Part shown: piece after piece, positions 6,672 through 40,261 of the stretch
Numbering within the stretch: position 1 is the stretch's first letter
Layout: each line of letters opens with the position of its first letter
NCBI GenBank assembly: GCA_016839055.1
Contig: JAEKNX010000004.1
Location: 310,001 to 374,000, forward strand
Direction: 5' to 3'
Source of the DNA: Spirochaetales bacterium
GTDB lineage: Bacteria; Spirochaetota; Spirochaetia; UBA9216
Length of the DNA: 64,000 nt
Made by a program: the position numbers and the translations under genes
Notes under the pieces: model-generated
What the model was told of the DNA's origin: nothing
Databases searched by the model: none
Seen by the model: only the letters and a program-made list of their open reading frames with translations

Positions 6672-7720
6672 TGGGCGTTACAACACATAATAATAACAGC
6701 CTTGTGGAGACATCCAGGTTTATAAACGAGACAGGCCTGAAAGAACGATTTGGGAAATTAATAATACAATGGGAAGTAATTCTTGTTCTAATGTTTCTCT
6801 TTGAGATCATACTGTTCAGCAATATTTCTCCCTATTTTCTCGATTACTTTAATCTGATGAATGCAACCTTCACCTTCATGGAAAAGGCGATACTTGCTCT
6901 TCCGATGATATTTGTAATCATGTCGGGCGATATCGATATTTCGGTAGCCGCTATTATCGCGCTCTGTTCATTTTCGATGGGCTATGCCGCGGCAGCCGGA
7001 GTCGGGGCCGCGGGGCTTGTTGTAACAGGCCTCGCAGTTGGTACGGCTGCCGGCGCGTTTAACGGTTTTTTCATTACACGTTTCGGAATGCCGGCAATAG
7101 CGGTAACACTTGCGTCCTCTTCTCTGTTTCGGGGAGTATCACAGGCGGTGCTCGAAGATCAGGCATACACTAAATATCCGGATGCATTCGCTTACTTCGG
7201 CCAAGGTTATGTAGGTGATTCGGTTATTCCCTTTGAACTACTGCTGTTTGTTATACTCGCGACAGTTATGGGGTACATCCTCCATAAAACCACCTATGGT
7301 CGTAAACTGTATGCGATAGGCAATTCAGAATCGGCCGCGCGCTTTTCCGGCGTAAGGGTTAACAGAATCCGGATGATGAATTTTATGCTCAACGGCTTGT
7401 TCGCCGGCATCTCGGCTGTCCTCCTTACCTCTCGAATAGGCAGTACCAGGCCGAATATTGCGCTGGGGTTTGAACTTGAGGCAATCACACTCGTGGTCCT
7501 CGGCGGTGTATCAATCAGCGGTGGAAAGGGGAACATTTTCGGTGTTGTTCTTGCTGTATTTTTCATCGGCTACCTAAAGTTTGGAATGGGGCTGATGATG
7601 CTGTCGGCCAAGGTAATGATTATCACCACGGGCTTGCTGCTTATTATTGCAGTTCTGCTGCCGGGAGTCCTTGATACAATCAAAGGGCGTCGGAAACTTG
7701 CCAGACAGCAGATGGAGTAA
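6671..7720 (+). CDS. Sugar ABC transporter permease, RbsC family (second)
   Basis: Second membrane subunit of the same importer. Family motifs include SGDIDISVAAIIALCSFSMG and GRKLYAIGNSESAARFSGV. An in-frame ATG at 6662 touches the ribosome binding site AAAGGAG (6655-6661), so ATG 6671, nine bases from that site and overlapping the upstream stop as TGATG, is preferred; this gives 349 residues. The gene ends immediately before a tandem hairpin repeat that separates it from the mutarotase gene. Confidence 0.92.
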   Translation: MGVTTHNNNSLVETSRFINETGLKERFGKLIIQWEVILVLMFLFEIILFSNISPYFLDYFNLMNATFTFMEKAILALPMIFVIMSGDIDISVAAIIALCSFSMGYAAAAGVGAAGLVVTGLAVGTAAGAFNGFFITRFGMPAIAVTLASSSLFRGVSQAVLEDQAYTKYPDAFAYFGQGYVGDSVIPFELLLFVILATVMGYILHKTTYGRKLYAIGNSESAARFSGVRVNRIRMMNFMLNGLFAGISAVLLTSRIGSTRPNIALGFELEAITLVVLGGVSISGGKGNIFGVVLAVFFIGYLKFGMGLMMLSAKVMIITTGLLLIIAVLLPGVLDTIKGRRKLARQQME

Positions 7721-7918
7721 TCAAATTGAACGTCCCTGTTCAATTTGATTTTGGAGTTTGAAAGTTTTACTTTTCAAACTCCAACTGGGAAACTCCCTGC
7801 CGTCCCTGGCAGGCGCAGCAGATGTAGGTGTCAAATTGAACTTCCCTGTCCAATTTGATTCTGGAGTTTGAAAGTTTTTCAAACTTCGACATGGAAACTC
7901 CCTGCCGTCCCTGGCAGG
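7721..7918 (+). repeat. Two tandem copies of a three-hairpin intergenic module
   Basis: Copy 1 (7721-7813) and copy 2 (7831-7918) are near-identical and each holds three inverted repeats in order. H1 has CAAATTGAAC arms with loop GTCCCT (7722-7747) or TTCCCT (7832-7857, one mismatch in the stem). H2 is a long GGAGTTTGAAA/TTTCAAACTCC-type stem (7751-7784 and 7863-7886). H3 is CCTGCC-GTCCCT-GGCAGG (7796-7813 and 7901-7918). The second H3 ends 7 bases before the AGGTGA ribosome binding site of the mutarotase gene. Related elements occur at 8263, 16431 and 56268. No coding potential is apparent. Confidence 0.85.
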
Positions 7919-26778: not shown

Positions 26779-27552
26779 TCAATATACGACAGTGACCGAA
26801 CCGTCGCCAATTGGAACAATTTTTACGGCTATTCCGTAAACTGCGGAAAGGTTTTCTTCGGTAAACAGCTTGTCAAAGGGTCCTGATTTCACTTCCCTAT
26901 TCGGTCCTATTAGAATGAGATAATCGGCTGTCCGGGCTGCAAGTTCGGGGTCGTGAGTCGTGAATATTACTGTTTTTCCTGCTGTCCTGTAGGATTTCAT
27001 CAGGTTTATCATCTCCCGTTTTCTGGATAGATCGAGGTGATTTGTGGGTTCATCAAGCAGGAGGATCTCCGGCTCCTGGGTGAGTGAACGCGCCATCAGG
27101 CATACCTGAGTTTCTCCACCGCTGAGTCTGGGTATCTTTCTGTCGGCAATAGCCGTCCCTCCGGCTGTCGCAAGCGCTTCAAATGCTATTTTACGATCTT
27201 TTTCCCCGGGCTGCTGAAGAGGGTTCAGATAAGGTGCGCGGCCGAGAAGGATGTACTCGGCTACAGAGTACTCGAAGGATAGATTTTCTTTCTGAGGAAG
27301 CAGGCTTATTGTTCTTCCCCGCTCACGAGAACTGCGTTTCTGAAGATCTTTTCCGTTTAACAGTATTACCCCATCGTCCGGTTTCAGCCAGCCAAGCAAT
27401 AGATGCAGCAGTGTAGTCTTGCCCGTTCCGTTCGGTCCGAGAATTGCGCATATAGAACCTTCCGGCAGCGAAAGGTTGAGATCAGAAAAGAGTTTTGTTT
27501 CACCGAAAGAGAAGCTCATTCTCCTGAGTTCAAAAGCCGGTTGCCCTAGCAT
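26779..27552 (-). CDS. ABC importer ATP-binding protein, FecE/BtuD/MolC type
   Basis: ATPase of a metal-chelate, vitamin B12 or oxyanion importer. Walker A is GPNGTGKTT at 39-47, the signature LSGGETQ lies near residue 145, and Walker B is ILLLDEPTNHLD. At 257 residues it matches the family. The gene overlaps the permease by 7 bases and is last in a three-gene operon (binding protein, permease, ATPase). The neighbouring molybdoenzyme operon makes molybdate or tungstate a reasonable substrate, as for Haemophilus MolABC, but iron chelates or cobalamin cannot be excluded. Confidence 0.9.
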   Translation of the reverse strand: MLGQPAFELRRMSFSFGETKLFSDLNLSLPEGSICAILGPNGTGKTTLLHLLLGWLKPDDGVILLNGKDLQKRSSRERGRTISLLPQKENLSFEYSVAEYILLGRAPYLNPLQQPGEKDRKIAFEALATAGGTAIADRKIPRLSGGETQVCLMARSLTQEPEILLLDEPTNHLDLSRKREMINLMKSYRTAGKTVIFTTHDPELAARTADYLILIGPNREVKSGPFDKLFTEENLSAVYGIAVKIVPIGDGSVTVVY

Positions 27553-28553
27553 GTCTGCTCCGTATCAGGTCTTGTAAGGATGATTATAAAGAGAATGACG
27601 CCTAAAAATGCTGTCAGAATTCCCAGTGGAATCTCGCCTGAGAACAGCAGTCGGGCAAAATCATCGCAGATGAGTCCGAAAAGTCCGCCTATTACAATGG
27701 CGCCCGGAAGTGATGCCGAAGCATCGGCGCCAAATAGTTTTCGGGACAGATGAGGCACTATCAATCCTACCCACTGAACAATTCCACTGATGGAAATCAT
27801 TGTAGTGACGGGGATTACAGCCAGAAAGAGTATGAGCAGTCGGCCTTTTGCCGGGCTTAGTCCCAGGGAGAATGCCGTTTGGTCGCCGGTCGACAGGATG
27901 TTTATTCTCCAGCGCAGGGCGATGAGAATTGTCAGAGGAATCACTACTCCCGGAATTGCAGCCTTGAGGTGGGAGGGTGTTACTCCGGACAGGCCGCCGA
28001 GCAGCCAGAAGGTCATCTCCGGAAGTTGTGTCAGCGGATCGGCCAGCGTTTTCACGAGGCCGAGGCCCGCCGAGAATAGTGCCGATACGGCAATCCCTGC
28101 GAGTATAAGACGCAGCAACCAGCCTCCGAAGCGGAGCCTGTGGGCAAGGATGTAGGTTAGCGCAAGCCCTGTCAGCCCCGCGGCGGCAGCGCTGATCTGC
28201 ATCCATATCAGAGCCTGTCCGCCGAGTATAATGCTGAGTCCCGCACCGAAGGCGGCCCCCTGGCTTATCCCCAGAAATCCCGGCTCAACAAGAGGGTTGG
28301 AAAATATTAACTGAAATATAAGCCCTCCGCAGCCAAGCGCCATTCCCAGCAGCATGGCGGCTGTACAGCGGGGCAGTCTTAACGTCAGGAAGATTTTCAA
28401 CGCCAGAGGATCAGCTCTGAGCACTGAAATTGGAGTAAAGCCCGGCTTCGGGTAACGGCCTAGAAGCAGCGACAGCAGGAAGACTGCCGCAAGCGTAAGG
28501 CAAAGTAGTATTAGTCTGCTCTTGTTGCTTCGGTGCTTTACTGTTTTGCTCAT
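27546..28553 (-). CDS. ABC importer permease, FecCD/BtuC family
   Basis: Membrane channel subunit of 335 residues with roughly ten hydrophobic helices. FecCD signatures are LRLPRCTAAMLLGMALGCGG, NPLVEPGFLGISQGAAFGA and WVGLIVPHLSRKLFG. The start overlaps the stop of the binding-protein gene by one base. This family moves chelated iron, haem, cobalamin or, in MolB, molybdate. No substrate-specific residue can be picked out by eye. Confidence 0.92.
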   Translation of the reverse strand: MSKTVKHRSNKSRLILLCLTLAAVFLLSLLLGRYPKPGFTPISVLRADPLALKIFLTLRLPRCTAAMLLGMALGCGGLIFQLIFSNPLVEPGFLGISQGAAFGAGLSIILGGQALIWMQISAAAAGLTGLALTYILAHRLRFGGWLLRLILAGIAVSALFSAGLGLVKTLADPLTQLPEMTFWLLGGLSGVTPSHLKAAIPGVVIPLTILIALRWRINILSTGDQTAFSLGLSPAKGRLLILFLAVIPVTTMISISGIVQWVGLIVPHLSRKLFGADASASLPGAIVIGGLFGLICDDFARLLFSGEIPLGILTAFLGVILFIIILTRPDTEQTC

Positions 28554-29581
28554 CAGCGGTAGTCGCCTGTGATTTTGGGAAGAATTATCTCATCAACATC
28601 AGCCTTCGAGAAGCCGTATGCGGTGCTGTAAAATTGATAAAGTTTGCTCTCAAGCAGTGCTTCTGAAAACAGCTGAGGATGGAGTTTGCTTCCTATCCAG
28701 TACATGCCGAGTATCCATCGCGGATCAGGTTGATCCCAGCTTAGGAAATCTCCCGGGAAGGCATAGAGCCTGTCGTTCTGTTCTGCTCGCAGCATCTTCC
28801 ATAGCGGATCTTTTTTAAGCTGTTCTTTGACATCCGCAACATCGGTATGATAGGAGACTACAAAAATTGTATCCGGATCCCATGCGGCAATCTGCTCAAA
28901 TGATACGGTCTGCCAGCTTCTTTCGCTTACGGCATCCGTCCAGACCGGGACGCCCCCCGCCCATTCAACCATCCTTGTCTGAATCCAGCCGGCTGGCGGA
29001 ACCTTGAGGGTTAGACTGCCGCCTTTCATACTGTGATAGAGAAAGAGTACTCCGGGTTTTTCCGAAGCCGCTATTCCTGATGTTGTATTTTCAACAGCAA
29101 GCCGCTCGGTCTTGAAATAAGATTTAAGTTCCTCAGCCCGTTCGGGGTTATTGAAGATCTCTCCCATCAGCGTCAAATCTCTATCGTACTGCTCCGGTGA
29201 TTCCATGTCGATGTAGTAGACCGGGATGCCCAATGTCTCAATGTTTTTTGCGGCCTTTCTCATATACCCTTTTAGTATAACATGAGACGGGTTGTAGGCA
29301 GCAACAGTTTCGGGCTGCAGCTCCATTGCCAGAACAGCCTTGCCTGAATAGGCCGGATCAAGTATTTCCTGAAAACTACCGCCTGCCTGATTTCCTTTTC
29401 CCATTGCTATGAGAGCGTCTGCAGCCTCCGGGAACATATAGAGAGCGTCGAGGACTAGTGAATATCCGGGTCCCCAGCAGAGAATCTTCGGAGTAGTTCT
29501 GTCTTCAGCTGCCACAGTGGTCAATGAAATACAGACTGTCAAAAGCAGAGCTGAAACTGATTTTTTCATGTTGAATTGCAT
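28553..29581 (-). CDS. ABC importer substrate-binding protein, BtuF/FepB/MolA fold
   Basis: Exported binding protein of 342 residues with a signal peptide of about 24 residues (SVSALLLTVCISLTTVAAED). The body has the Peripla_BP_2 pattern (ETVAAYNPSHVILKGYMRK, then VSFEQIAAWDPDTIFVVSYH). The block SWDQPDPRWILGMYWIGSKL recalls the MolA-like branch from memory. It is transcribed away from the molybdoenzyme operon, which begins with a predicted cofactor riboswitch. Molybdate or tungstate is therefore the favoured but unproven ligand. It is first in its operon. Confidence 0.85.
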   Translation of the reverse strand: MQFNMKKSVSALLLTVCISLTTVAAEDRTTPKILCWGPGYSLVLDALYMFPEAADALIAMGKGNQAGGSFQEILDPAYSGKAVLAMELQPETVAAYNPSHVILKGYMRKAAKNIETLGIPVYYIDMESPEQYDRDLTLMGEIFNNPERAEELKSYFKTERLAVENTTSGIAASEKPGVLFLYHSMKGGSLTLKVPPAGWIQTRMVEWAGGVPVWTDAVSERSWQTVSFEQIAAWDPDTIFVVSYHTDVADVKEQLKKDPLWKMLRAEQNDRLYAFPGDFLSWDQPDPRWILGMYWIGSKLHPQLFSEALLESKLYQFYSTAYGFSKADVDEIILPKITGDYR

Positions 29582-29734: not shown

Positions 29735-29763
29735 TTGACCGCAGACATTTTCTATGCTAGTCT
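29735..29763 (+). promoter_or_regulatory. Promoter candidate for the riboswitch/aldehyde oxidoreductase operon
   Basis: TTGACC (29735-29740), a 17-base spacer and TAGTCT (29758-29763). Transcription would begin near 29770, just ahead of the predicted riboswitch. Confidence 0.45.
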
Positions 29764-29778
29764 TTTAGAAAATTATAT

Positions 29779-29880
29779 TTCTCCGAGTTTGTGAATCCTG
29801 TGGCAAAGGCTATGGACGCAAACCGATGGGTTTATCTGGAAACGGATACGCCTCCCGGACTTGGAAAGGAGAGTGAGAGT
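29779..29880 (+). promoter_or_regulatory. Molybdenum cofactor (Moco/Tuco) riboswitch
   Basis: The 3' part, ACGCCTCCCGGACTTGGAAA then GGAG (29848-29871), closely matches the Escherichia coli moaA leader, which from memory reads CGCCTCCCG-N5-GGAAAGGTG. The P1 stem pairs TTCTCC (29779-29784) with GGAGAG (29868-29873). ATCC (29794-29797) can pair with GGAC (29857-29860) only in part for P2, so the inner fold is less certain. A TATC/GGATA hairpin lies at 29833-29848. It precedes a molybdopterin enzyme gene by about 170 bases. In that leader a TATCTGA-N9-TCAGATA hairpin at 29955-29977 followed by GTTTTGG could belong to the expression platform. Moco versus tungsten form is not resolved. Confidence 0.75.
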
Positions 29881-30049
29881 GGATAGGTTAAGAATACCCG
29901 TCACCTGACTGAATAAGAATCAATACACAACAGAATACAGTTTCTCTATACCTTTATCTGAATAAAATCGTCAGATAGTTTTGGATAGCTGTATATACTC
30001 ATTTCCAGTAAATTGTCCGGGGAGAAGACAAACACAAACGGAGGTTGAC

Positions 30050-32845
30050 ATGTGTGATTCAACAGTCGCAGCAGGCTGTGGTGAAAGTGACGAGAAGGTA
30101 AAGAAAAACAGGCATCTTTACAAAAAGGTATTGAATGTGAACGGTCTTGATCAAACAGTGATCGTTGATGTGGACGACAGACTGGTTGATGTAATCAGAA
30201 AGCAGCTTGGGTTGACCGGAACTAAGGTGGGATGCCGGGCCGGGCAATGCGGAATCTGTTCCGTACTGATCGACGGCAAGGTCAAACGTGCTTGTGTCGT
30301 AAAGATGAAGTCGGTCCGTGAAAACGCCGAGATCATAACGATCGAGGGTATTGGCAACCCTGAAAACCTTCACCCCGTACAGGCGGCTTGGATTAAACAC
30401 GGTGGTGCTCAATGTGGAATCTGCTCTCCGGGTTTCATAGTTTCGGCAAAAGCTCTTCTGGATCAGAATCAGAGTCCGAGCAGGGAAGATGTACGGGACT
30501 GGTTTCAGAAAAACCGTAATGCCTGTCGCTGTACAGGGTATAAACCTCTGGTAGATGCCGTTATGGATGCAGCGAAGGTTGTTCGCGGAGAAATGAAGAT
30601 TGAAGAACTATTGTGGGAATTCAAGGACGGTGAGAGTATCCTCGGTTCATTTGCTCCCCGGCCTTCAGCCCTCGCGAAGGTTACAGGCCGATGGGATTAT
30701 GGTGCCGACCTTGGTCTTAAGATGCCCGGAGAGATGCTCCACCTCGCCCTTGTTCAGTCGAAGGTCTCGCATGCGAATATCCTGTCTATTGATTACAGCA
30801 AGGCTGAAAAAATGCCGGGTGTCGAATGTGTTCTAACGGCGAAAGATGTGCAGGGTACGAACCGAATAAACGGAATGGCTACCCTTCCGGGAAATAAATG
30901 CGACGGTTTCGACCGGCCTATCATCTGTGATGAGAAAATCTTTATGTACGGTGATGTAATGGCTATTGTATGTGCCGACACCTCCGAACATGCTAAGGCT
31001 GCAGCGGCCGCGGTGAAGGTTGAACTTGAAGAGCTGCCCGCCTACCTGAGTGCATTTGAGGCGATGGAAGAAGACGCAATGGAGATTCACCCCGGCGTGC
31101 CTAATGTTTATTATGAGCTTCCGACAATTAAGGGTGGAGAGGTGAAACCGCTGATTGAGAAATCTGCGTACTCTGCCGAAGGCAGCTATTATACTACTCG
31201 TCAGCCCCATCTGATTTTAGAGCCTGATGTCGGATTCTCATACTATGATGAGGATGACAGACTGACTATCCATTCAAAGAGTATCTGCCTTTACCTGCAT
31301 ATCGACATGCTTCATAGAGCCCTCGGCCTCGATGCCGACAAGGTCAGGATTGTCCAGAATAACATGGGTGCCACCTTCGGTTATAAACTGAGCCCGACAT
31401 GTGAAGGTTATCTAGGTGTTGCAACCATGGCAACGGGGAAAGCCTGTTACCTTGAGTTTGATATGCATCAGACAATTACATATACGGGAAAGAGAGCTCC
31501 GTCAAATATCGATATTACAATGTCTGCCGACGAGGAGGGCAGGATCACAGCCCTTGATTATCAGCATATCTTCGATCACGGTGCCTATTCCGAGTGGGGT
31601 GACCTCGTTTTATTCAAGGGGAATATGTTTATCGGCGGCGGTTACAATATCGATAATATCCGCGGGTACGGAAAACTTGTCTGTACGAACCATGCATACG
31701 GTACGGCATTCAGGGCCTACGGATCTCCGCAGGCCCTCTTCGCGAGCGAATCTGTTGTCGATGAGCTTGCCCTAAAGATGGGTATGGATCCGCTCGAATT
31801 CCGTTATAAGAATGTCTACCGGGAAGGTTCGACAACACCGACCGGACAGAGTCCGGAGGTCTACCCCCTGCCCGAGATGATTGACTGGCTCAGGCCAAAA
31901 TATCAGGCGGCTTTGAAAAAGGCTGAGGCTGAATCAACTGAAGCGCAGAAGAAGGGGGTCGGTGTAGCGCTTGCAACTTACTGCGTCGGTGGTGACTTTG
32001 CCGATTATTCCGAGGCCTGGGTCGAACTTCTGCCCAACGGAGGCGCGGCGGTCTACAACTGCTGGCAGGATCACGGCCAGGGTTCGGATATGGGTACTCT
32101 TACAATCATCCATGAATGTCTGCGTCCTCTGAACATTCCTGTAGACAAAATTAAGCTGATTATGAACGACACTGCAATGAGCCCCGACGGTGGAATATCA
32201 GCGGGAAGCCGGGGACAGGTTTTTTTCGGAAATGCGATGAAGGACGCCTGCGATAAAATGCTTGTCGCAATGGTGAAACCCGATGGAAGCTACCGCAGCT
32301 ATGACGAGATGAAGTATGAGGGAAAGGAGTTTCTTTACAAGGGCAATTACGCCTCTGGTCCTCATTGTTCTATGATCGATGAGAAAACGTCGCAGTGTAA
32401 ACCGATGCTAATGTATATGTACGGAATGATCATGAGCGAGGTAACCGTAGATACCGCGACGGGTAAAACATCGGTCACCAAGATGACTATGGCTATTGAT
32501 GTCGGTAAGGTTATAAACCGCAATAATGTAGACGGGCAGATGTACGGAGGGCTTGCACAGGGAGTAGGTCTGGCCTTAAGCGAAAACTTCGATGATCTCT
32601 CTAAGCATGTTGATCTTGTCCGCTGCGGGCTTCCGTTTATAAAGGATATTCCCGATGAGATGGAGCTTGAGTATTTTGAGTCTCCCCGCGAACAGGGTCC
32701 ATTCGGAGCCTCCGGAGTAGGCGAGCTGCCGCTGTCGTCTCCCCATGCCTCGGTTGTCAATGCGATAGCCAATGCCTGCGGAGTCAGAATCAGAGAGCTG
32801 CCTGCAACACCCGACAAGGTGTTATCTGGTTTGAAGAAACTATAG
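30050..32845 (+). CDS. mop: MOP-type molybdopterin aldehyde oxidoreductase
   Basis: Xanthine-oxidase-family enzyme oxidising aldehydes to acids. Two [2Fe-2S] domains come first: Cys62, Cys67, Cys70 and Cys82, then Cys122, Cys125, Cys159 and Cys161 (CRCTGYKPLVDAVMDAA). The molybdenum domains follow without an FAD domain. The protein ends with FGASGVGELPLSSPHA, whose Glu is the catalytic base. The sequence is close throughout to Desulfovibrio gigas Mop (907 residues; 931 here). ATG 30050 with ACGGAGG upstream is chosen over an in-frame ATG at 29981 lacking such a site. First gene of an eight-gene operon under a predicted Moco riboswitch. Confidence 0.93.
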   Translation: MCDSTVAAGCGESDEKVKKNRHLYKKVLNVNGLDQTVIVDVDDRLVDVIRKQLGLTGTKVGCRAGQCGICSVLIDGKVKRACVVKMKSVRENAEIITIEGIGNPENLHPVQAAWIKHGGAQCGICSPGFIVSAKALLDQNQSPSREDVRDWFQKNRNACRCTGYKPLVDAVMDAAKVVRGEMKIEELLWEFKDGESILGSFAPRPSALAKVTGRWDYGADLGLKMPGEMLHLALVQSKVSHANILSIDYSKAEKMPGVECVLTAKDVQGTNRINGMATLPGNKCDGFDRPIICDEKIFMYGDVMAIVCADTSEHAKAAAAAVKVELEELPAYLSAFEAMEEDAMEIHPGVPNVYYELPTIKGGEVKPLIEKSAYSAEGSYYTTRQPHLILEPDVGFSYYDEDDRLTIHSKSICLYLHIDMLHRALGLDADKVRIVQNNMGATFGYKLSPTCEGYLGVATMATGKACYLEFDMHQTITYTGKRAPSNIDITMSADEEGRITALDYQHIFDHGAYSEWGDLVLFKGNMFIGGGYNIDNIRGYGKLVCTNHAYGTAFRAYGSPQALFASESVVDELALKMGMDPLEFRYKNVYREGSTTPTGQSPEVYPLPEMIDWLRPKYQAALKKAEAESTEAQKKGVGVALATYCVGGDFADYSEAWVELLPNGGAAVYNCWQDHGQGSDMGTLTIIHECLRPLNIPVDKIKLIMNDTAMSPDGGISAGSRGQVFFGNAMKDACDKMLVAMVKPDGSYRSYDEMKYEGKEFLYKGNYASGPHCSMIDEKTSQCKPMLMYMYGMIMSEVTVDTATGKTSVTKMTMAIDVGKVINRNNVDGQMYGGLAQGVGLALSENFDDLSKHVDLVRCGLPFIKDIPDEMELEYFESPREQGPFGASGVGELPLSSPHASVVNAIANACGVRIRELPATPDKVLSGLKKL

Positions 32846-32893: not shown

Positions 32894-32905
32894 GAAGGAT
32901 TGAAG

Positions 32906-35185
32906 ATGGATAAAGAGTATATCGGAGCCCTTGAGGATAAGTGTATTCAGGACTGCCCTCCTGGATGTCAGAGCCTATGTCCCCTGCATGTAGACGTCAG
33001 GAAGATGCTTGAAGCCATTCAGAAGGCCGATTTTAACCTTGCTCGCAGCATCTATGAAAGATCGGTGGCCTTTCCGGGGATACTCAGTAGGATCTGTGAT
33101 GCCTCCTGTAGATCCGGCTGTCTGAGAGGAGATTACGGCGGCGCTATAGATGTTCCCCGACTTGAAGAGGCGGCAGTTCTATTTGGAATGAAAAAGGCTC
33201 GGAAGTTCCGTATCCTCAGAAAGAGAAGTGAGCGTGTGGCTGTCGTAGGCGGCGGACTCTGCGGGATGACCGCGGCGCTTACTCTTTATGAGAAGGGTTA
33301 TGACGTTGAACTCTTTGAGAAGTCTTCATCACTCGGAGGCTGCGTCCGAAGTATCGTTCTGGATATTCTGACGCCGGATATTATAGCTGAGGACGTCTCC
33401 GTCTTCGATTCTACCGCTGTCAGCATTAGGTTGAACTCCGGCCGTAATGCTTCTGAGCTTGAAAATTTAATAGAGTCATATGACGCCGTTCTCGTTGCCT
33501 GGGGAAGCGGGCAGGCGACTAGGGAGCTGGTAGCTGATATTGATACCTTCATTTGCAGGCATTCGGGCCTCTTTGCCGCCGGCAGTCTTCTCCGGAAGAA
33601 TTATTCGCCATCGACGTCGATGTCGGACGGTCGCAGAGCTGCTGTTTCCATTGATCGCTACCTCCAGGGGGTTTCGCTTTCGGCAGGTCGCGATGGAGAA
33701 TTACCCTTTGAAAGTTGTCTTTATACAAATACAGAAACTATCGTCCCGTCAAGTGTTACGGTGCCTGCCGAGGGCGGGTCTTTTCGCCGTGATGAGGCAT
33801 TAACCGAGGCTTGCCGCTGTGTGCTTTGCGAATGCATGGAGTGTGTCTCCGCCTGCAAGTTGTTAGAGCATCACGGGAGCTATCCAAAGCGCTATGTGAG
33901 AGAGCTGTCGAACAGCGTCAATCAGTTCTACGGGGTGAGGAAAACAAAGCATATGCTTAACGGCTGCACTGATTGCGGTCTTTGCGCCGAGCTCTGCCCG
34001 AATGATCTGTCAATGGGAGAACTCTGCACGATGGGAAAGCGCGAACTTGTAGAACGGGGAATAATGCCGCCGGCAGTCCATGATTTTCCAATTCAGGATA
34101 TGATATACAGTAACAGTGAGCAATGCTCCATCCGAATCTTCCCTGAAGGAGCTGACTCTGTCTATTTCCCCGGATGTCAGATGCAGGCCCTGATGCCTGA
34201 TTTGCTGGAAAAATCCTATGAAAGCATTCTTCAAATGAGTTCAGGCAGAACAGGTCTTTATCTCGGCTGCTGCGGAGCCCCTGCAGACTGGGCCGGCCGT
34301 ATACCTCTTCGGGACGAGATAATAGAATCATTCAGAACCTGGTGGAGCGGCTGCGGCAAACCCAGAATAATCTATGCCTGTACCTCCTGTAGGAAGATTC
34401 TTGCAAATGCAGTCGATAAGGAATCACTCATTTCCTTATGGGAAATCTTCGATGAAAAATCTTCAGAAAATATTCTTCCGGCGACCGTGGGAGAGCAACC
34501 TAGGCTCGCAATCGCCGATCCATGCACCTCTCGTTATCTTCCTGAAGTCAGATCGGCTGCTAGATCCCTTTTTAAAAGACAGGGCTGTGAAATTGAAGAA
34601 TTATTCTATAGTGGAGAGCTTACCCGCTGCTGCGGATTCGGAGGCCTTGTCAGCCTGACGGAACCGGAGGTCGGCCGTCTAATGGTAGAGGCGAGAATCA
34701 ATGAAAGCAATGAAGATTACGGGCTTTATTGCGTGATGTGTCAGGATAACTTCGCATCCGAAGGGAAAAGCACCAGACATATTCTTGAAGTCCTCTATGG
34801 TGCTTCCGCCCATAGGAAGCCGCCGGGCAGCAGGATATCTTATAGTGAAAGACAGGAAAACCGGCGAAGAGCCCGTGAGTCGGTTCGAAGAAGATGGGCT
34901 TCAAACCACGCCCTACCTGCAGACGATGCCTGGGAGAATACAAGGCTGCTGATATCGGAAGAGGTTGCTGCCCGGGTGGAAGAGCGGATGATTCTTTATA
35001 GGGATATTCAGCGTGCTGTCTTCGAAGCGGAGCTGAGCGGCCGCCGGATTCTGAATCCGGAAACCGAACATTTAATAGCCTCGAATAAACCAGGAGTAGT
35101 TACCTATTGGGTTGAGTATTCGCTGGAAGGGGAGGCTGTCAGGATTCATAATGCCTACAGTCACCGGCTCGAGGTTATGGAGTAA
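32906..35185 (+). CDS. FAD/NAD(P) oxidoreductase with iron-sulfur and CCG domains, MOP electron-transfer partner candidate
   Basis: A 759-residue fusion. The N-terminal GltD-like iron-sulfur domain has CIQDCPPGCQSLC and CDASCRSGCLRG. A Rossmann FAD domain follows (VAVVGGGLCGMTAAL, ELFEKSSSLGGCV). Next come cysteine clusters CRCVLCECMECVSAC and CTDCGLCAELCPN, then a heterodisulfide-reductase-like CCG region (YFPGCQMQ, LGCCGAP, CCGFGG). The last 100 residues have no recognised domain. I recall this architecture as the pyridine nucleotide-disulfide oxidoreductase/dicluster-binding protein next to aldehyde oxidoreductases in Desulfovibrio. It probably accepts electrons from Mop; the direction and partner are inferred. 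ATG 32906 with GAAGGA is preferred over TTG 32900. Confidence 0.85.
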   Translation: MDKEYIGALEDKCIQDCPPGCQSLCPLHVDVRKMLEAIQKADFNLARSIYERSVAFPGILSRICDASCRSGCLRGDYGGAIDVPRLEEAAVLFGMKKARKFRILRKRSERVAVVGGGLCGMTAALTLYEKGYDVELFEKSSSLGGCVRSIVLDILTPDIIAEDVSVFDSTAVSIRLNSGRNASELENLIESYDAVLVAWGSGQATRELVADIDTFICRHSGLFAAGSLLRKNYSPSTSMSDGRRAAVSIDRYLQGVSLSAGRDGELPFESCLYTNTETIVPSSVTVPAEGGSFRRDEALTEACRCVLCECMECVSACKLLEHHGSYPKRYVRELSNSVNQFYGVRKTKHMLNGCTDCGLCAELCPNDLSMGELCTMGKRELVERGIMPPAVHDFPIQDMIYSNSEQCSIRIFPEGADSVYFPGCQMQALMPDLLEKSYESILQMSSGRTGLYLGCCGAPADWAGRIPLRDEIIESFRTWWSGCGKPRIIYACTSCRKILANAVDKESLISLWEIFDEKSSENILPATVGEQPRLAIADPCTSRYLPEVRSAARSLFKRQGCEIEELFYSGELTRCCGFGGLVSLTEPEVGRLMVEARINESNEDYGLYCVMCQDNFASEGKSTRHILEVLYGASAHRKPPGSRISYSERQENRRRARESVRRRWASNHALPADDAWENTRLLISEEVAARVEERMILYRDIQRAVFEAELSGRRILNPETEHLIASNKPGVVTYWVEYSLEGEAVRIHNAYSHRLEVME

Positions 35186-35189
35186 TTAT

Positions 35190-35396
35190 ATGAAAACTGA
35201 AGTATCAAATATAGACGGACTTCTCTGCGAGGGCTGTAATCTCCTACTCGAAGCCGGAAAGGTTCATATAAGGTATATGAAAAGTAAATTTCCTGCGGAA
35301 CTTCTGGTCTGTCCGGGCTGCGGCCTCATCTACGTACCAGAAGAACTTGCTATAGGGAAGATGGCCGAGGTCGAGCGGACCCTGGAGGATAAATGA
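35190..35396 (+). CDS. Small zinc-ribbon/redox protein (DVU_1557-like)
   Basis: A 68-residue protein with two cysteine pairs, LLCEGCNLLLE and LVCPGCGLIYVPEELA, that can bind one zinc or iron ion. The start at 35190 lies just after the preceding stop; a longer in-frame version would run inside the upstream gene. The stop overlaps the methyltransferase start (ATGA). The position between the dicluster protein and the methyltransferase matches the Desulfovibrio gene order as remembered. The function is unknown; metal delivery or electron transfer is a guess. Confidence 0.75.
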   Translation: MKTEVSNIDGLLCEGCNLLLEAGKVHIRYMKSKFPAELLVCPGCGLIYVPEELAIGKMAEVERTLEDK

Positions 35397-36115
35397 TCAG
35401 GACGGAAAAAACGCCTCTTTACGAAGCCCCTCTATGGCGGGATTTCAACGAAGGGCTCAGACGTCCCGGCGGGCTTGAACTTACCGACTATGCGCTTTCT
35501 CTATGCGGGATTTCTGCCGGGGCTAGGGTTCTCGATGTCGGATGCGGCGGCGGCTTCTCGGTGGAGTATTTGTCCAGCCGCTTCGGTTTTATAACAGAAG
35601 GCTGCGATATCTCAGATCAGATGATAGAAGAAGCACGGCTGCGGTTTCCGGCAAAAATCTTTTTCAAAGCCGATACGGCTGCCATTCCCTGCTCCGGTGG
35701 CTGCTACGATGCCGTACTGGCAGAATGCAGCCTTAGTATCTGTAACGATCTTTCCGCGGCTCTCTCTGAAATCAACAGGGTTCTTGTCGCCGAGGGGAGG
35801 CTTATAATCACCGATATGTATTTAAGAGGCAGAGGTGGGGCGGGGACGGCGGATAATGGAAAAAGCTGTCTGCAGAAATTATCTCCCGAATGGAAATGGC
35901 GGAAAGCGCTTCAGGCCGAAGGTTTTGAAATTCTCTGCATAAAGGAGCGCAGCTCTGATCTTGGGTCGTTGATTGCAAGGATAATATTTGAGTTTGGTTC
36001 AGTCGAAAATTTCTACTCCGAGTGGCTGGGCGGCCCTGATGACTGCGGAGTAAAAGACAGTACTGCAAAACCTGGCTACTTTCTTGCAGTCTGCCGAAAA
36101 AAAGGAGATCTCTGA
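35393..36115 (+). CDS. Class I SAM-dependent methyltransferase (DVU_1556/TrsM-like)
   Basis: Cytoplasmic methyltransferase of 240 residues. The SAM-binding motif I is RVLDVGCGGGFSVEYL near residue 45, followed by motif II EGCDISDQMIEEAR and a post-motif with AVLAECSLSI. The C-terminal third is less typical. The acceptor is unknown. Its place beside a radical SAM gene and a C_GCAxxG_C_C gene suggests a shared small-molecule or protein modification needed by the aldehyde oxidoreductase. Both ends overlap or abut neighbours. Confidence 0.83.
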   Translation: MIRTEKTPLYEAPLWRDFNEGLRRPGGLELTDYALSLCGISAGARVLDVGCGGGFSVEYLSSRFGFITEGCDISDQMIEEARLRFPAKIFFKADTAAIPCSGGCYDAVLAECSLSICNDLSAALSEINRVLVAEGRLIITDMYLRGRGGAGTADNGKSCLQKLSPEWKWRKALQAEGFEILCIKERSSDLGSLIARIIFEFGSVENFYSEWLGGPDDCGVKDSTAKPGYFLAVCRKKGDL

Positions 36116-36507
36116 TGAATGAAACAAACTGGGAACTGCTTGAGCTTGCTGGCAAGGGATACTGCTGCAGCCAGATTCTTGCAGCACAGGCCCTTTCAAT
36201 TAAGGGCGTAGAGAATCCTCTGCTTATAAGGACTATGAAAGCTTTCTGCGGTGGACTGCAGAGTGGGCTTCTTTGCGGGGCTCTCAGCGGAGGGGCCTGC
36301 TTTCTGGAGCTGCTGCATGAAGGTTCGGCATTTGTAATGATTCCGGAGCTTATCAGCTGGTTTACTGATAATTTCGGCAGCAGCGACTGTGGGGTTCTCA
36401 CCGGAGGAGATGCTGACTGGAAGGCTGAGCACTGTCCTTTAATCATCGCCGGGGTTTATGAAAAATGTCTTGAACTTCTGGAGAACCATGATTATGAAAT
36501 CGAGTAG
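36115..36507 (+). CDS. C_GCAxxG_C_C family redox protein (DVU_1555-like)
   Basis: A 130-residue protein of the putative redox-active C_GCAxxG_C_C family. The conserved cysteines are seen in GYCCSQILAAQ, AFCGGLQSG, LLCGALSGGACFLEL, near DCGVLTGGD and in HCPLIIAG. It shares one base with the methyltransferase stop and overlaps the radical SAM start by about 20 bases. Proteins of this family are often encoded near molybdenum and iron-sulfur enzymes. The biochemical role is not established. Confidence 0.83.
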   Translation: MNETNWELLELAGKGYCCSQILAAQALSIKGVENPLLIRTMKAFCGGLQSGLLCGALSGGACFLELLHEGSAFVMIPELISWFTDNFGSSDCGVLTGGDADWKAEHCPLIIAGVYEKCLELLENHDYEIE

Positions 36508-37867
36508 GAGTCTCTGCCCTGTATGTTTGAAACTTCTGAATCTTGAATATATCAGACGGGATGATGATGTTTTTCTTTCCAAAGAATGTGATGAGCACGG
36601 CAGTTTTGAAATTCCGATATGGAGGGGGCTCCCCGATATCGATGACTGGATGATGGGGACGGAACTCACTCGGCCGTCAAAAGTACTGACAACCTCTGTC
36701 GATGGTTGTCCGTTTGACTGCGGAGTTTGTCCTGAACATAAACAACAGGCCTGCTGTGTTGTTATTGAGATAACAAGTCGGTGCAATCAGTCCTGCCCTG
36801 TCTGCTACGCCTCCTCATCAAAGGACACTTGCGGCCCGGATGATCGGCCAGTGGATGAAATAATTTCTGATTTGAAATTTCTAAAAGAGATAGGTGAAAC
36901 ACGTCCGTTTAACCTGCAGTTTTCGGGAGGCGAACCCTCACTTCGCGACGATTTGCCGGAGATTCTCCGGGCAGCTTCAGCGCTCGGTTTCCCGTATCTT
37001 CAGCTCAATACAAACGGCCGGAGGCTCGCAGAAGAACCTGGCTATGCCTCCACGTTGAAAGATTCCGGATTGTCAGCGGTCTTTCTCCAGTTTGACGGCT
37101 TGTCGGATGACGTTTATATACGACTCCGAGGAGAGGCGCTTGCAGAAAAAAAACGACAGGCAGTGACAAACTGTGCTGCAGCAGGACTTGGTGTTGTACT
37201 GGTCATGACTCTGGTGCAGGGGGTGAATGATCATCAGCTTGGAGGCCTTGTTAAATATCTCACAGAAAATCTCCCTGCCGTCAGAGGGCTGCATCTCCAG
37301 CCGGTAAGCTGCTTCGGCCGGTATCCGGAAGGTAGGGGAAAACCTCGGCGGATTACTATGCCCGAAGTTTTTGCGGCTCTTGAACTTCAGTTGGGAGACT
37401 CGGTAAAAGCTGATTATTTTAAACCTTTAAGCTCCGGGCACCCTCTTTGTTCATTTCACGGACGTTTCTATCTCGGACCGGAGAAAGAGATCGTTCCGCT
37501 GATAAATGATAAGGCTGAAAGCCCGGGCTCTTTCTGCTGCTGTTCAGGCGGTGTTTCTGCCATAATGAAGGCGCGAGATTTTCTTTCGGAAAAATGGACA
37601 ATGCCCTCGGCATCTTCTTCGCAGCCGGTCGGAGCTGCCTATAATGTTTCGGCCTGGGATGAGTATCTTCAGCTGGTAAAACAGAACGGCTTCAGCATCA
37701 CCGGAATGCTTTTTCAGGATGCCGATACCCTTGATTTGGACAGACTATCTTCCTGTAGGGTTCATGTTCTCGCCCCCAATCGCAGACTCATTCCATTTTG
37801 TGCGTATAACCTCAGCAGCAGGAACGGAATGACACTGTATCGCAGACAACTCAAGGTGCAGCATTGA
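36488..37867 (+). CDS. Radical SAM protein (TrsS-like, cysteine form)
   Basis: A 459-residue enzyme. The N-terminus has SLCPVCLKLLN and a DGCPFDCGVC element. The radical SAM [4Fe-4S] motif CNQSCPVC (Cys99, 103, 106) lies in VIEITSRCNQSCPVCYASS, followed by FSGGEPSLRDDLPEI. I recall this family as the radical SAM (seleno)protein TrsS; here all such positions are Cys codons. Starts at 36488 or 36494 are both possible from CTGGAG at 36478-36483. The reaction is unknown. With the methyltransferase and ligase it may build or modify a cofactor. Confidence 0.85.
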   Translation: MIMKSSRSLCPVCLKLLNLEYIRRDDDVFLSKECDEHGSFEIPIWRGLPDIDDWMMGTELTRPSKVLTTSVDGCPFDCGVCPEHKQQACCVVIEITSRCNQSCPVCYASSSKDTCGPDDRPVDEIISDLKFLKEIGETRPFNLQFSGGEPSLRDDLPEILRAASALGFPYLQLNTNGRRLAEEPGYASTLKDSGLSAVFLQFDGLSDDVYIRLRGEALAEKKRQAVTNCAAAGLGVVLVMTLVQGVNDHQLGGLVKYLTENLPAVRGLHLQPVSCFGRYPEGRGKPRRITMPEVFAALELQLGDSVKADYFKPLSSGHPLCSFHGRFYLGPEKEIVPLINDKAESPGSFCCCSGGVSAIMKARDFLSEKWTMPSASSSQPVGAAYNVSAWDEYLQLVKQNGFSITGMLFQDADTLDLDRLSSCRVHVLAPNRRLIPFCAYNLSSRNGMTLYRRQLKVQH

Positions 37868-39120
37868 TCAGTCCGCTGGATAAATGGATGGAGGGCAGGC
37901 TGGGGCATAGTCCAACCTCTGAAAATCTACTTAGGTATCAGTTTGCCAAAATCAGGGAAACGGCTGCGTATATAAAGAATTACAGCCCTTATTATAGAAG
38001 AATTCTATATAATTTACACCCGGAGGATCTCAGATCCGCCTCTGATCTTGCCGAATGGCCGCTGACTACGCAAGAGGACTTGAAATTATACGGAGCGGGG
38101 ATGGTCTGTGTTTCACAGGATGAAATATGCCGAGTTGTAAGCTTGACCAGTTCCGGCACAACCGGCGGAAGAAAGAGGGTCTGGTTTACCGATGAAGATC
38201 AGGAACGCACCCGTGATTTTTTTCATCACGGCATGATGAGTTTTACCTCAAAGGGCGACATTGTTCTTATCGGGATGCCCGGACCTCAGCCGGGGAGCAT
38301 CGGCCCCTTGCTCTACGATGCCTTGTCACGATTCAGCGCCCGGGGAATTGTCGCGGGACCGCTCGGTTCTCTCTCAGAGGCCGGGGGTATAGTCATAAAT
38401 AAGGGAGTAACTCATTTTGCCGGGCTTCCCCGGCAGGCGGCCGGTCTTTCGGCTTTTCTTGAATCCTGCGGCAGGTCTCACAATCTCAAGACCTGGCTTT
38501 TGACTGCTGATTATGTACCCTCCGGTATTAGAGAACGCCTTGAGGCAGTCCCCGGCACCGCCGTATATGAACACTGGGGAATGACCGAAACGGGGCTCGG
38601 CGGAGGGGTATTCTGCGGCGCAAAGTCGGGTTACCATATGCGTGAGGCTGATCTTTATATAGAGATAATTGATCCTGATACCGGGGTGATGCTTTCTCCG
38701 GGGCAATGGGGTGAGATTGTCATTACGACGCTGAGCCGCCTCGGAATGCCACTTTTTCGGTACAGAACCGGCGACTGCGGTCGCTGGCTGTCAGCTTCCT
38801 GTTCCTGTGGTTCTATGCTCCGGCTGATGGATAGAACCCCCGGCAGACTTGACGACTTTATGGAGCAGCCGGATGGCAGCAGGCTGGCGCGCAGCGACTG
38901 GGAAGATGCTGTATTCAGCCTTGACGGTGTAATTGATTATCGCATTAAGTCCGGAGGTTCTGTTGCCGAGCTTATCATCCTCAATGCTCCGGCGCCGCAG
39001 GGGGTTGAGATTGAAAAGCTTGAAACCATCCTTCAGGGACGGATAGAATACAGAAATGTAAGAGATTGGTCTTTTGAAGGGCCGCAAAAAGGTATATGGG
39101 GCAGAGCGAGATTTGACTGA
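37864..39120 (+). CDS. PaaK-like AMP-dependent ligase (DVU_1553-like)
   Basis: Adenylate-forming enzyme of 418 residues. The ATP-binding loop is VSLTSSGTTGGRKRVWF and the downstream motif VYEHWGMTETGLGGG; FRYRTGDCGRW corresponds to the usual YRTGD. It resembles phenylacetate-CoA ligases (about 430 residues). Activation of a carboxylate for CoA or amine transfer is expected. The substrate could be the acid formed by Mop, or a precursor of a cofactor modification; context alone does not decide. It overlaps the radical SAM stop by 4 bases. Confidence 0.85.
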   Translation: MISPLDKWMEGRLGHSPTSENLLRYQFAKIRETAAYIKNYSPYYRRILYNLHPEDLRSASDLAEWPLTTQEDLKLYGAGMVCVSQDEICRVVSLTSSGTTGGRKRVWFTDEDQERTRDFFHHGMMSFTSKGDIVLIGMPGPQPGSIGPLLYDALSRFSARGIVAGPLGSLSEAGGIVINKGVTHFAGLPRQAAGLSAFLESCGRSHNLKTWLLTADYVPSGIRERLEAVPGTAVYEHWGMTETGLGGGVFCGAKSGYHMREADLYIEIIDPDTGVMLSPGQWGEIVITTLSRLGMPLFRYRTGDCGRWLSASCSCGSMLRLMDRTPGRLDDFMEQPDGSRLARSDWEDAVFSLDGVIDYRIKSGGSVAELIILNAPAPQGVEIEKLETILQGRIEYRNVRDWSFEGPQKGIWGRARFD

Positions 39121-40261
39121 AAATAAAATAAAAACAACATATGGAGCTATAATATTGGCCGCAGGCTTTTCATCACGAATGGGCCGGCTGAAGCCGCTTA
39201 TGCAGCTCGGAGGCTGTACTGTGCTTGAGCATCAGATTCGGTTGTTTCAGTCTGTTGGAATTGATTCACCTGTTGTTGTTGTCGGCCATCATGCTGATGA
39301 GGTGATTCCCACTGCCGAAAGGCTGGGTGCACGAGCTGTGCTGAACAGCCGTTATGAAGCGGGCATGTTCTCATCAGTCATAGCCGGAGTCGGGGCACTA
39401 AGAGATTCCAGTATAGACGCATTTTTCATGCTTCCGGTTGATGTTCCGCTAGTCTTGGGAATCTTTCTTAAGCGGATGTGCAGAATCTTTGAAGAAGAGT
39501 CTGCACGTATCATTTATCCGGAATACAGGGGAGAATCAGGACATCCGCCGCTGATCAGCTCCTCTCTCATTCCAGAGATCCTCAAGCATGACGGAGCCGG
39601 GGGGCTTCGGACGGTGCTTGCGAACTATGAATCAGGCACTTTTGGGTTTGAGACTGGCGAAGAGGGTATTCTTTTTGATATGGATACCCCTGATGCTTAT
39701 GAGAAAATAAAACATAGATGGGATGAGAGGCAGCTTCCGAAGGAGAGCGAATGCCTACATCTGCTGAATGACTATGCAACTCCGTTAGACGTGATTAGTC
39801 ATTCTGAGAAGGTCTCGGAGCTATCCGGTATTATATGCCGAAAGTTGAACAATCGGGGATTTAATCTATCTATTCAGCTTGCCGAGCGGGCAGGGCTGCT
39901 GCATGATGTGGCCAAGAGTTTGCCCAATCACGCCCGTGAAGGCGCGCGGATACTGACCCTTCATGGTTATAATGATATTGCGTTGATAACCGGGCAGCAT
40001 ATGAACCTATACTATAGCTCCGGCAGCCCGATAACCGAGGCGGAGATCCTCTATTTAGCCGACAAGCTCCTTGATGGTGTTGAAGTATGTCCTCTCGTTC
40101 ATCGCCGGACTGAGTCACTCCGCCAGAAAGGCGATACTCCGGAGATTCGGAACGCAATAAACAAGCGTTTTGATTCTGCTGAATGTATCGCTGCAGCTGT
40201 TGAAGAACTTCTCGGGGAACCTTTGATGAAATTTATTCAATTCGATAGAGGCTCAAAATAA
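39113..40261 (+). CDS. MobA/MocA-like nucleotidyltransferase fused to an HD domain (DVU_1551-like)
   Basis: Probable cytidylyl- or guanylyltransferase for molybdopterin, 382 residues. The N-terminal half has the NTP-transferase motif ILAAGFSSRMGRLKPLMQLG, then DAFFMLPVDVPLV. The C-terminal half is an HD phosphohydrolase-like domain with ERAGLLHDVAKSLPNHA. There is no in-frame ATG ahead of the domain. TTG 39113, overlapping the previous stop by 8 bases, is chosen; TTG 39074 is an alternative. Xanthine-oxidase-family enzymes use the cytosine dinucleotide cofactor, so MocA-like activity fits the operon. Last gene of the series. Confidence 0.85.
   Translation: MTENKIKTTYGAIILAAGFSSRMGRLKPLMQLGGCTVLEHQIRLFQSVGIDSPVVVVGHHADEVIPTAERLGARAVLNSRYEAGMFSSVIAGVGALRDSSIDAFFMLPVDVPLVLGIFLKRMCRIFEEESARIIYPEYRGESGHPPLISSSLIPEILKHDGAGGLRTVLANYESGTFGFETGEEGILFDMDTPDAYEKIKHRWDERQLPKESECLHLLNDYATPLDVISHSEKVSELSGIICRKLNNRGFNLSIQLAERAGLLHDVAKSLPNHAREGARILTLHGYNDIALITGQHMNLYYSSGSPITEAEILYLADKLLDGVEVCPLVHRRTESLRQKGDTPEIRNAINKRFDSAECIAAAVEELLGEPLMKFIQFDRGSK

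Follow-up and report, generated by a model that had tools for sequence, protein, structure and literature searches.

A P3-less Moco/Tuco riboswitch aptamer heads a molybdenum aldehyde oxidoreductase operon in a spirochaete and may link it to the tungsten cofactor

The 64,000-nucleotide stretch of Spirochaetales DNA analysed here (the window) almost certainly contains a genuine, P3-less member of the RF01055 Moco/Tuco riboswitch family, which heads an operon for the molybdenum aldehyde oxidoreductase Mop. Cofactor sensing by this element would follow from the family to which it belongs. In the scheme that we slightly favour, the aptamer is functional: it would bind the molybdopterin cofactor in its tungsten form and, whenever this form is plentiful, lower mop expression by ligand-dependent repression, so that the molybdenum enzyme would be made mainly when the cell cannot load its tungsten aldehyde oxidoreductases (W-AORs).

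The original prediction had placed a Moco RNA element, recognised by its core motif and a matching P1 stem, at positions 29779-29880. A cmscan search of the window against Rfam 15 bears this out: RF01055 scores 75.1 bits (gathering threshold 36, E 2.5e-16) over the full model (1-135), and the span of the match, 29769-29887, agrees with the predicted one to about 10 bases. Both the P1 stem and the core are present at 29779-29873; by sequence inspection the core consists of GCCTCCCG (29850-29857), a five-nucleotide gap and GGAAAGGAG (29863-29871). P1, P2, P4 (whose GAAA loop is a GNRA loop) and P5/core all align, with few non-standard pairs, while the model positions of the P3 stem are deleted in the RF01055 alignment. 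The tetraloop receptor in P2 reads CCUGUGGC...GCUAUGG as against CCUAAG...UAUGG, and the same variant is seen in several Mop-linked aptamers. Its CUGU form is common to four of these, namely the aptamers of the window, of a genome from another family of the class (G007), of a Eubacteriales locus (L100) and of Anaerovorax (L159), a distribution that would fit common descent within that part of the Mop set. The Moco-II RNA (RF01713) had no match in the window at the gathering threshold (cmscan). Elsewhere in the window, cmscan placed a TD-2 RNA (RF03162) at 7715-7813 on the reverse strand (57.9 bits, gathering threshold 48.7).

Table 1. Features of the mop leader and operon (window coordinates)
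Feature	Position	Strand	Basis
Weak promoter candidate TTGACC-N17-TAGTCT, just 5' of the aptamer	29735..29763	+	By eye; -10 matches 3/6; not listed by promoter scan
RF01055 Moco/Tuco aptamer, P3-less variant	29769..29887	+	cmscan
P1 5' strand TTCTCC, pairs with GGAGAG 29868-29873	29779..29784	+	Sequence, Rfam alignment
P3 site, about 3 bases remaining between P2 and P4	29825..29827	+	Alignment deletion; gap length by script
GAAA tetraloop capping P4; arms 29828-29838 / 29843-29853	29839..29842	+	Rfam alignment, sequence
Core GCCTCCCG-N5-GGAAAGG and P1 3' strand GGAGAG (29868-29873)	29850..29873	+	Sequence, Rfam alignment
Leader hairpin, -17.1 kcal/mol, without U-run; candidate part of expression platform	29935..29994	+	Folding
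Shine-Dalgarno CGGAGG and ATG of mop	30039..30052	+	Sequence, script
mop, molybdopterin-dependent aldehyde oxidoreductase, 931 aa	30050..32845	+	NF045668 1488.4 bits, cut-off 1100; Pfam MoCoBD_1, MoCoBD_2, Fer2, Fer2_2
Pyridine nucleotide-disulfide oxidoreductase/dicluster-binding protein	32900..35185	+	NF045663 829 bits
DVU_1556 family methyltransferase	35393..36115	+	NF045667 202 bits
DVU_1555-like C_GCAxxG_C_C protein	36115..36507	+	PF09719 over gathering; NF045669 97.6 against cut-off 103, just under
Radical SAM protein TrsS	36458..37867	+	NF045646 533 bits
DVU_1553 family AMP-dependent ligase	37864..39120	+	NF045666 384 bits
DVU_1551 family NTP transferase, akin to Moco cytidylyltransferase MocA	39074..40261	+	NF045665 401 bits; TIGR03310 138 bits, below cut-off

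Profile searches (NCBIfam, Pfam) identify a seven-gene operon behind the aptamer, with mop first and its accessory genes downstream, as had been predicted; 162 bases separate the end of the aptamer from the mop ATG. Since the D. gigas aldehyde oxidoreductase, a characterised Mop homologue, holds molybdenum with molybdopterin cytosine dinucleotide (MCD) (PMC10223205), we read the window Mop, by homology, as a probable molybdenum (MCD) enzyme. A FecCD-type ABC importer (26779-29581, reverse strand) is divergent from the operon; no RF01055 element was found on its strand, and its binding protein shares 24% identity with one encoded behind a P3-containing element elsewhere in the source genome (G000:C15). 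Within the mop leader of the window we found no terminator, a script detected no Shine-Dalgarno sequence inside P1 of the aptamer, and the predicted accessibility of the ribosome site is 0.28 with or without P1. The regulatory sign in the window is therefore assigned by analogy.

The RpoB of the source genome comes closest to those of other members of the class and, of the named genomes compared, to that of a Spirochaetes bacterium, in line with a place in Spirochaetota. Seven RF01055 elements exceed the cut-off in the source genome. Two contain P3 and stand before a FecCD-type importer and before a lipoprotein gene with a TonB receptor; the five P3-less ones precede mop, tupABC, genes for an Fe-S protein and a W-AOR of the AFOR family, a solute-binding/Oxidored_molyb/permease set, and purB-guaB. 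The host carries genes of tungsten metabolism, namely AFOR genes (AFOR_N gives 11 matches, including two fragments) and a TupA-like gene, which reaches 229 bits with the TupA model, below the cut-off of 400. The presence of P3-less copies before TupABC and a W-AOR in the same genome, together with the missing P3, lends weight to the earlier guess that the compact element might be the tungsten-cofactor variant.

Several of these leader types recur in relatives. In three species (L038 3623-3739, L044, L047) a P3-less RF01055 element precedes purB-guaB, followed by purA and guaA; these leaders carry ATGGCAG and, between aptamer and gene, a terminator-like hairpin and a conserved TATATAGTTTCCACCATAATCCTTCCGTATA. 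GTP is the precursor of molybdopterin. A purine riboswitch before purB was suspected in L038 from a motif but was not found, Rfam giving no other match in that locus. An operon for a solute-binding protein, an Oxidored_molyb lipoprotein and a permease lies behind a P3-less element in L041 (3598-8515) and its relatives, and the Shine-Dalgarno sequence falls within P1 in 9 of 11 such leaders. The TupABC leaders of L040, L043 and L050 have in common, as judged by eye, a CCTTC-N(10-13)-GGAGG arrangement 3' of the aptamer, which could pair the ribosome site while the aptamer holds GGAAAGG.

A survey of Mop genes in named genomes and relatives from the class, with G007 representing another family of it, found RF01055 elements before eight of them: in the window, G007, Eubacteriales (L100 and L153), Anaerovorax (L159), Synergistota (L139 and L140) and Desulfomicrobium (L094). 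P3 is missing in all eight, that is, in spirochaetes, Clostridia, Synergistota and Desulfomicrobium. The majority of the Mop genes surveyed have no RF01055 element, and on a 48-row Mop tree this trait changes six times, five of the changes being forced by well-supported branches. Because the tree demands at least five changes, the element must have been gained or lost on Mop genes repeatedly. The window Mop clusters with those of Desulforhopalus, L100 and G007; the nearest, 77% identical, is from Desulforhopalus vacuolatus, in whose genome neither RF01055 nor AFOR_N was found. At the G007 locus (L220, G007:C1:6328-11020) two P3-less elements stand in tandem, the first on a gene for an NAD-type aldehyde dehydrogenase, whose Shine-Dalgarno sequence lies within P1, and the second on mop. 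Enzymes of the NAD-type family use neither molybdenum nor tungsten; substitution is the most sensible reading of a cofactor sensor that controls the G007 aldehyde dehydrogenase.

To relate P3 to the target gene, about 120 RF01055 elements were examined with a script that uses core anchors, about 15 of them being read by eye. All elements before AFOR genes in this set read as P3-less (a few of them by eye). Both types occur before TupABC-type transporters, with P3-containing elements in several members of the class, and xdhC/modA-like genes of Geobacter lie behind P3-less elements; P3 is thus no clean marker of the metal. W-AORs are found in nearly all Mop genomes examined, with or without a Mop-linked element, so the co-occurrence of the two is uninformative.

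The imperfect sorting of P3 by metal speaks for a different reading, in which the element senses Moco or does not discriminate between the metals, the loss of P3 is structural only, and Mop is adjusted directly to the Moco supply. Mop itself requires Mo-MCD, the operon includes a MocA-like gene, and deletion of P3 from the E. coli element abolished control without switching specificity (PMC2408646), all of which would suit such a sensor. We nevertheless consider it unlikely, given that the P3-less type precedes TupABC and a W-AOR in the same genome and, in G007, a metal-free aldehyde dehydrogenase. Moreover, the leaders with terminators suggest an OFF switch, and an OFF switch that sensed Moco would let the cofactor shut off its own apoenzyme, which would be odd.

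The sign of regulation was approached through the layout of the leaders, a leader being counted as OFF if P1 includes the Shine-Dalgarno sequence or a terminator separates the aptamer from the gene (rough script, some leaders by eye). This layout is present in 31 of 44 non-AOR leaders versus 1 of 22 AOR leaders (Fisher p 1.9e-7, a value that overstates the difference because the leader sequences are related). Among the nine leaders of Mop or Mop-like genes, seven have a hairpin and U-run between aptamer and gene, which is, as judged from sequence, the layout of an OFF switch. Shuffled versions yield such a structure in only 0-7 of 60 cases (0-12%) for four of the seven (G161, G190, G192 and G185:C15); the other three terminators, in GC-rich leaders, are not better than shuffles, which often yield one. 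In most cases the energy of the antiterminator duplex did not beat that of shuffles, and ribosome-site accessibility gave no clear signal with P1 state in most leaders. An ON switch, in which the ligand-bound aptamer promotes mop and thereby matches enzyme production to available cofactor, would account for a window leader with neither terminator nor Shine-Dalgarno sequence in P1. The same lack is seen in the AOR leaders, and tungstate induces their products in Pelobacter carbinolicus; but the OFF layout of the four orthologous Mop leaders whose terminators stand well above the shuffled background makes an ON switch improbable. That the aptamer is a relic brought in by gene transfer and no longer regulates mop is scarcely credible: the closest Mop does sit in a genome without RF01055 and no expression platform is evident in the window, but the core and all paired elements except P3 are intact, the score is high, and the Mop genes of L100 and G007, from the same clade, also carry the element.

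A physiological precedent comes from P. carbinolicus, in which tungstate raises the aldehyde oxidoreductases Pcar_0456 and Pcar_0665, and a molybdenum-dependent isoenzyme, Pcar_0220, appears only without tungsten, replacing the W-AORs when molybdate alone is given (PMC4275255); that paper does not mention a riboswitch. In a genome that is probably that of P. carbinolicus (G311), two AFOR proteins are 74.96% identical, against 75.4% in PMC4275255, and each of the two genes has an RF01055 element ahead of it, read as lacking P3. The Mop of this genome, at 281,912, fits Pcar_0220 in position and stands behind a moeA-like gene with Moco-II upstream, not RF01055. Of the 30 Mop loci scanned in Desulfuromonadia (L256-L285), 18 have a Moco-II match close to Mop; in L268, for example, the order is Moco-II, moeA-like gene, Mop. 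In one organism, then, a Mop-type enzyme goes down with tungsten, though under a different RNA.

Taken together, tungsten as the sensed metal with repression as the outcome appears to be the best-supported reading, with the chances about evenly balanced. It draws on the P3-less elements of TupABC and the W-AOR in the same genome, the missing P3 in all eight Mop elements, the OFF layout of seven of the nine Mop leaders, the metal-free aldehyde dehydrogenase of G007 and the exchange in P. carbinolicus, and it suggests that the cell makes less Mop whenever tungsten versions can take over its task. Counting against it are the incomplete sorting of P3 by metal, the lack of an evident platform in the window, the near universality of W-AORs, three terminators of seven that resemble shuffles, and Moco-II in place of RF01055 before the Mop of the probable P. 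carbinolicus. More tentatively, and with somewhat less confidence than we give to repression in the window, P3-less RF01055 RNAs may run a general exchange of tungsten for molybdenum enzymes: the tungsten cofactor would favour W-AORs and turn off Mop and the metal-free aldehyde dehydrogenase through opposite platforms on the two gene sets, the arrangement would have arisen more than once, and Moco-II would do the Mop part in Desulfuromonadia.

The case for tungsten sensing by P3-less Moco RNAs has rested on gene association since 2008. Where such an element sits on a molybdenum enzyme and the cell has many tungsten isoenzymes, the two readings part: if tungsten is sensed, tungstate should repress; if molybdenum is sensed, molybdate should have an effect instead. 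The window case is a further member of a known riboswitch class, one that makes the Tuco hypothesis testable and is a candidate RNA mechanism for a tungsten/molybdenum aldehyde oxidoreductase exchange like that of P. carbinolicus. In the open-licence literature we found no paper with the term 'tuco riboswitch' and none joining Desulfovibrio, aldehyde oxidoreductase and riboswitch.

The closest known relatives are those of Regulski et al. (2008), who showed that the E. coli element represses in a Moco-dependent way and proposed Tuco sensing, from gene association, for the 58 of 176 RF01055-type elements without P3, direct and preferential Tuco binding not being shown for any of these at the time (PMC2408646). 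The window element resembles this putative subtype in its core, P1, P2 and GAAA-capped P4, in the missing P3, and in its place in the leader of a molybdopterin enzyme. The 2008 text ties RNAs without P3 almost exclusively to molybdopterin synthesis or to tungsten enzymes; the window element differs in that its target, Mop, belongs to the molybdenum xanthine-oxidase family. Because Mop, judged by homology, is a molybdenum enzyme and neither makes molybdopterin nor uses tungsten, we class the element as a P3-less RF01055 RNA and infer Tuco sensing. Its host is a spirochaete, a group missing from the 2008 list; the original description of Moco RNAs as known mostly from other phyla was loosely worded, as that list included delta-Proteobacteria, Clostridia and others (PMC2408646). 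The P3-less RNAs on presumed molybdenum enzymes (putative sulphite oxidase) of S. wolfei, flagged in the same paper as possible exceptions with Tuco repression as one explanation, are likewise P3-less RNAs on a presumed molybdenum enzyme, but of another enzyme family, and neither recurrence across lineages nor physiology was shown there. Moco-II is alike in that many Desulfuromonadia, the probable P. carbinolicus among them, have it ahead of a moeA-like gene and Mop, but it is an unrelated 46-nt motif that does not occur at the window locus. Finally, the W-AORs of P. carbinolicus (PMC4275255) lie behind P3-less RF01055 elements, as does the W-AOR of the window genome, whereas the molybdenum enzyme is preceded by Moco-II there and by RF01055 in the window.
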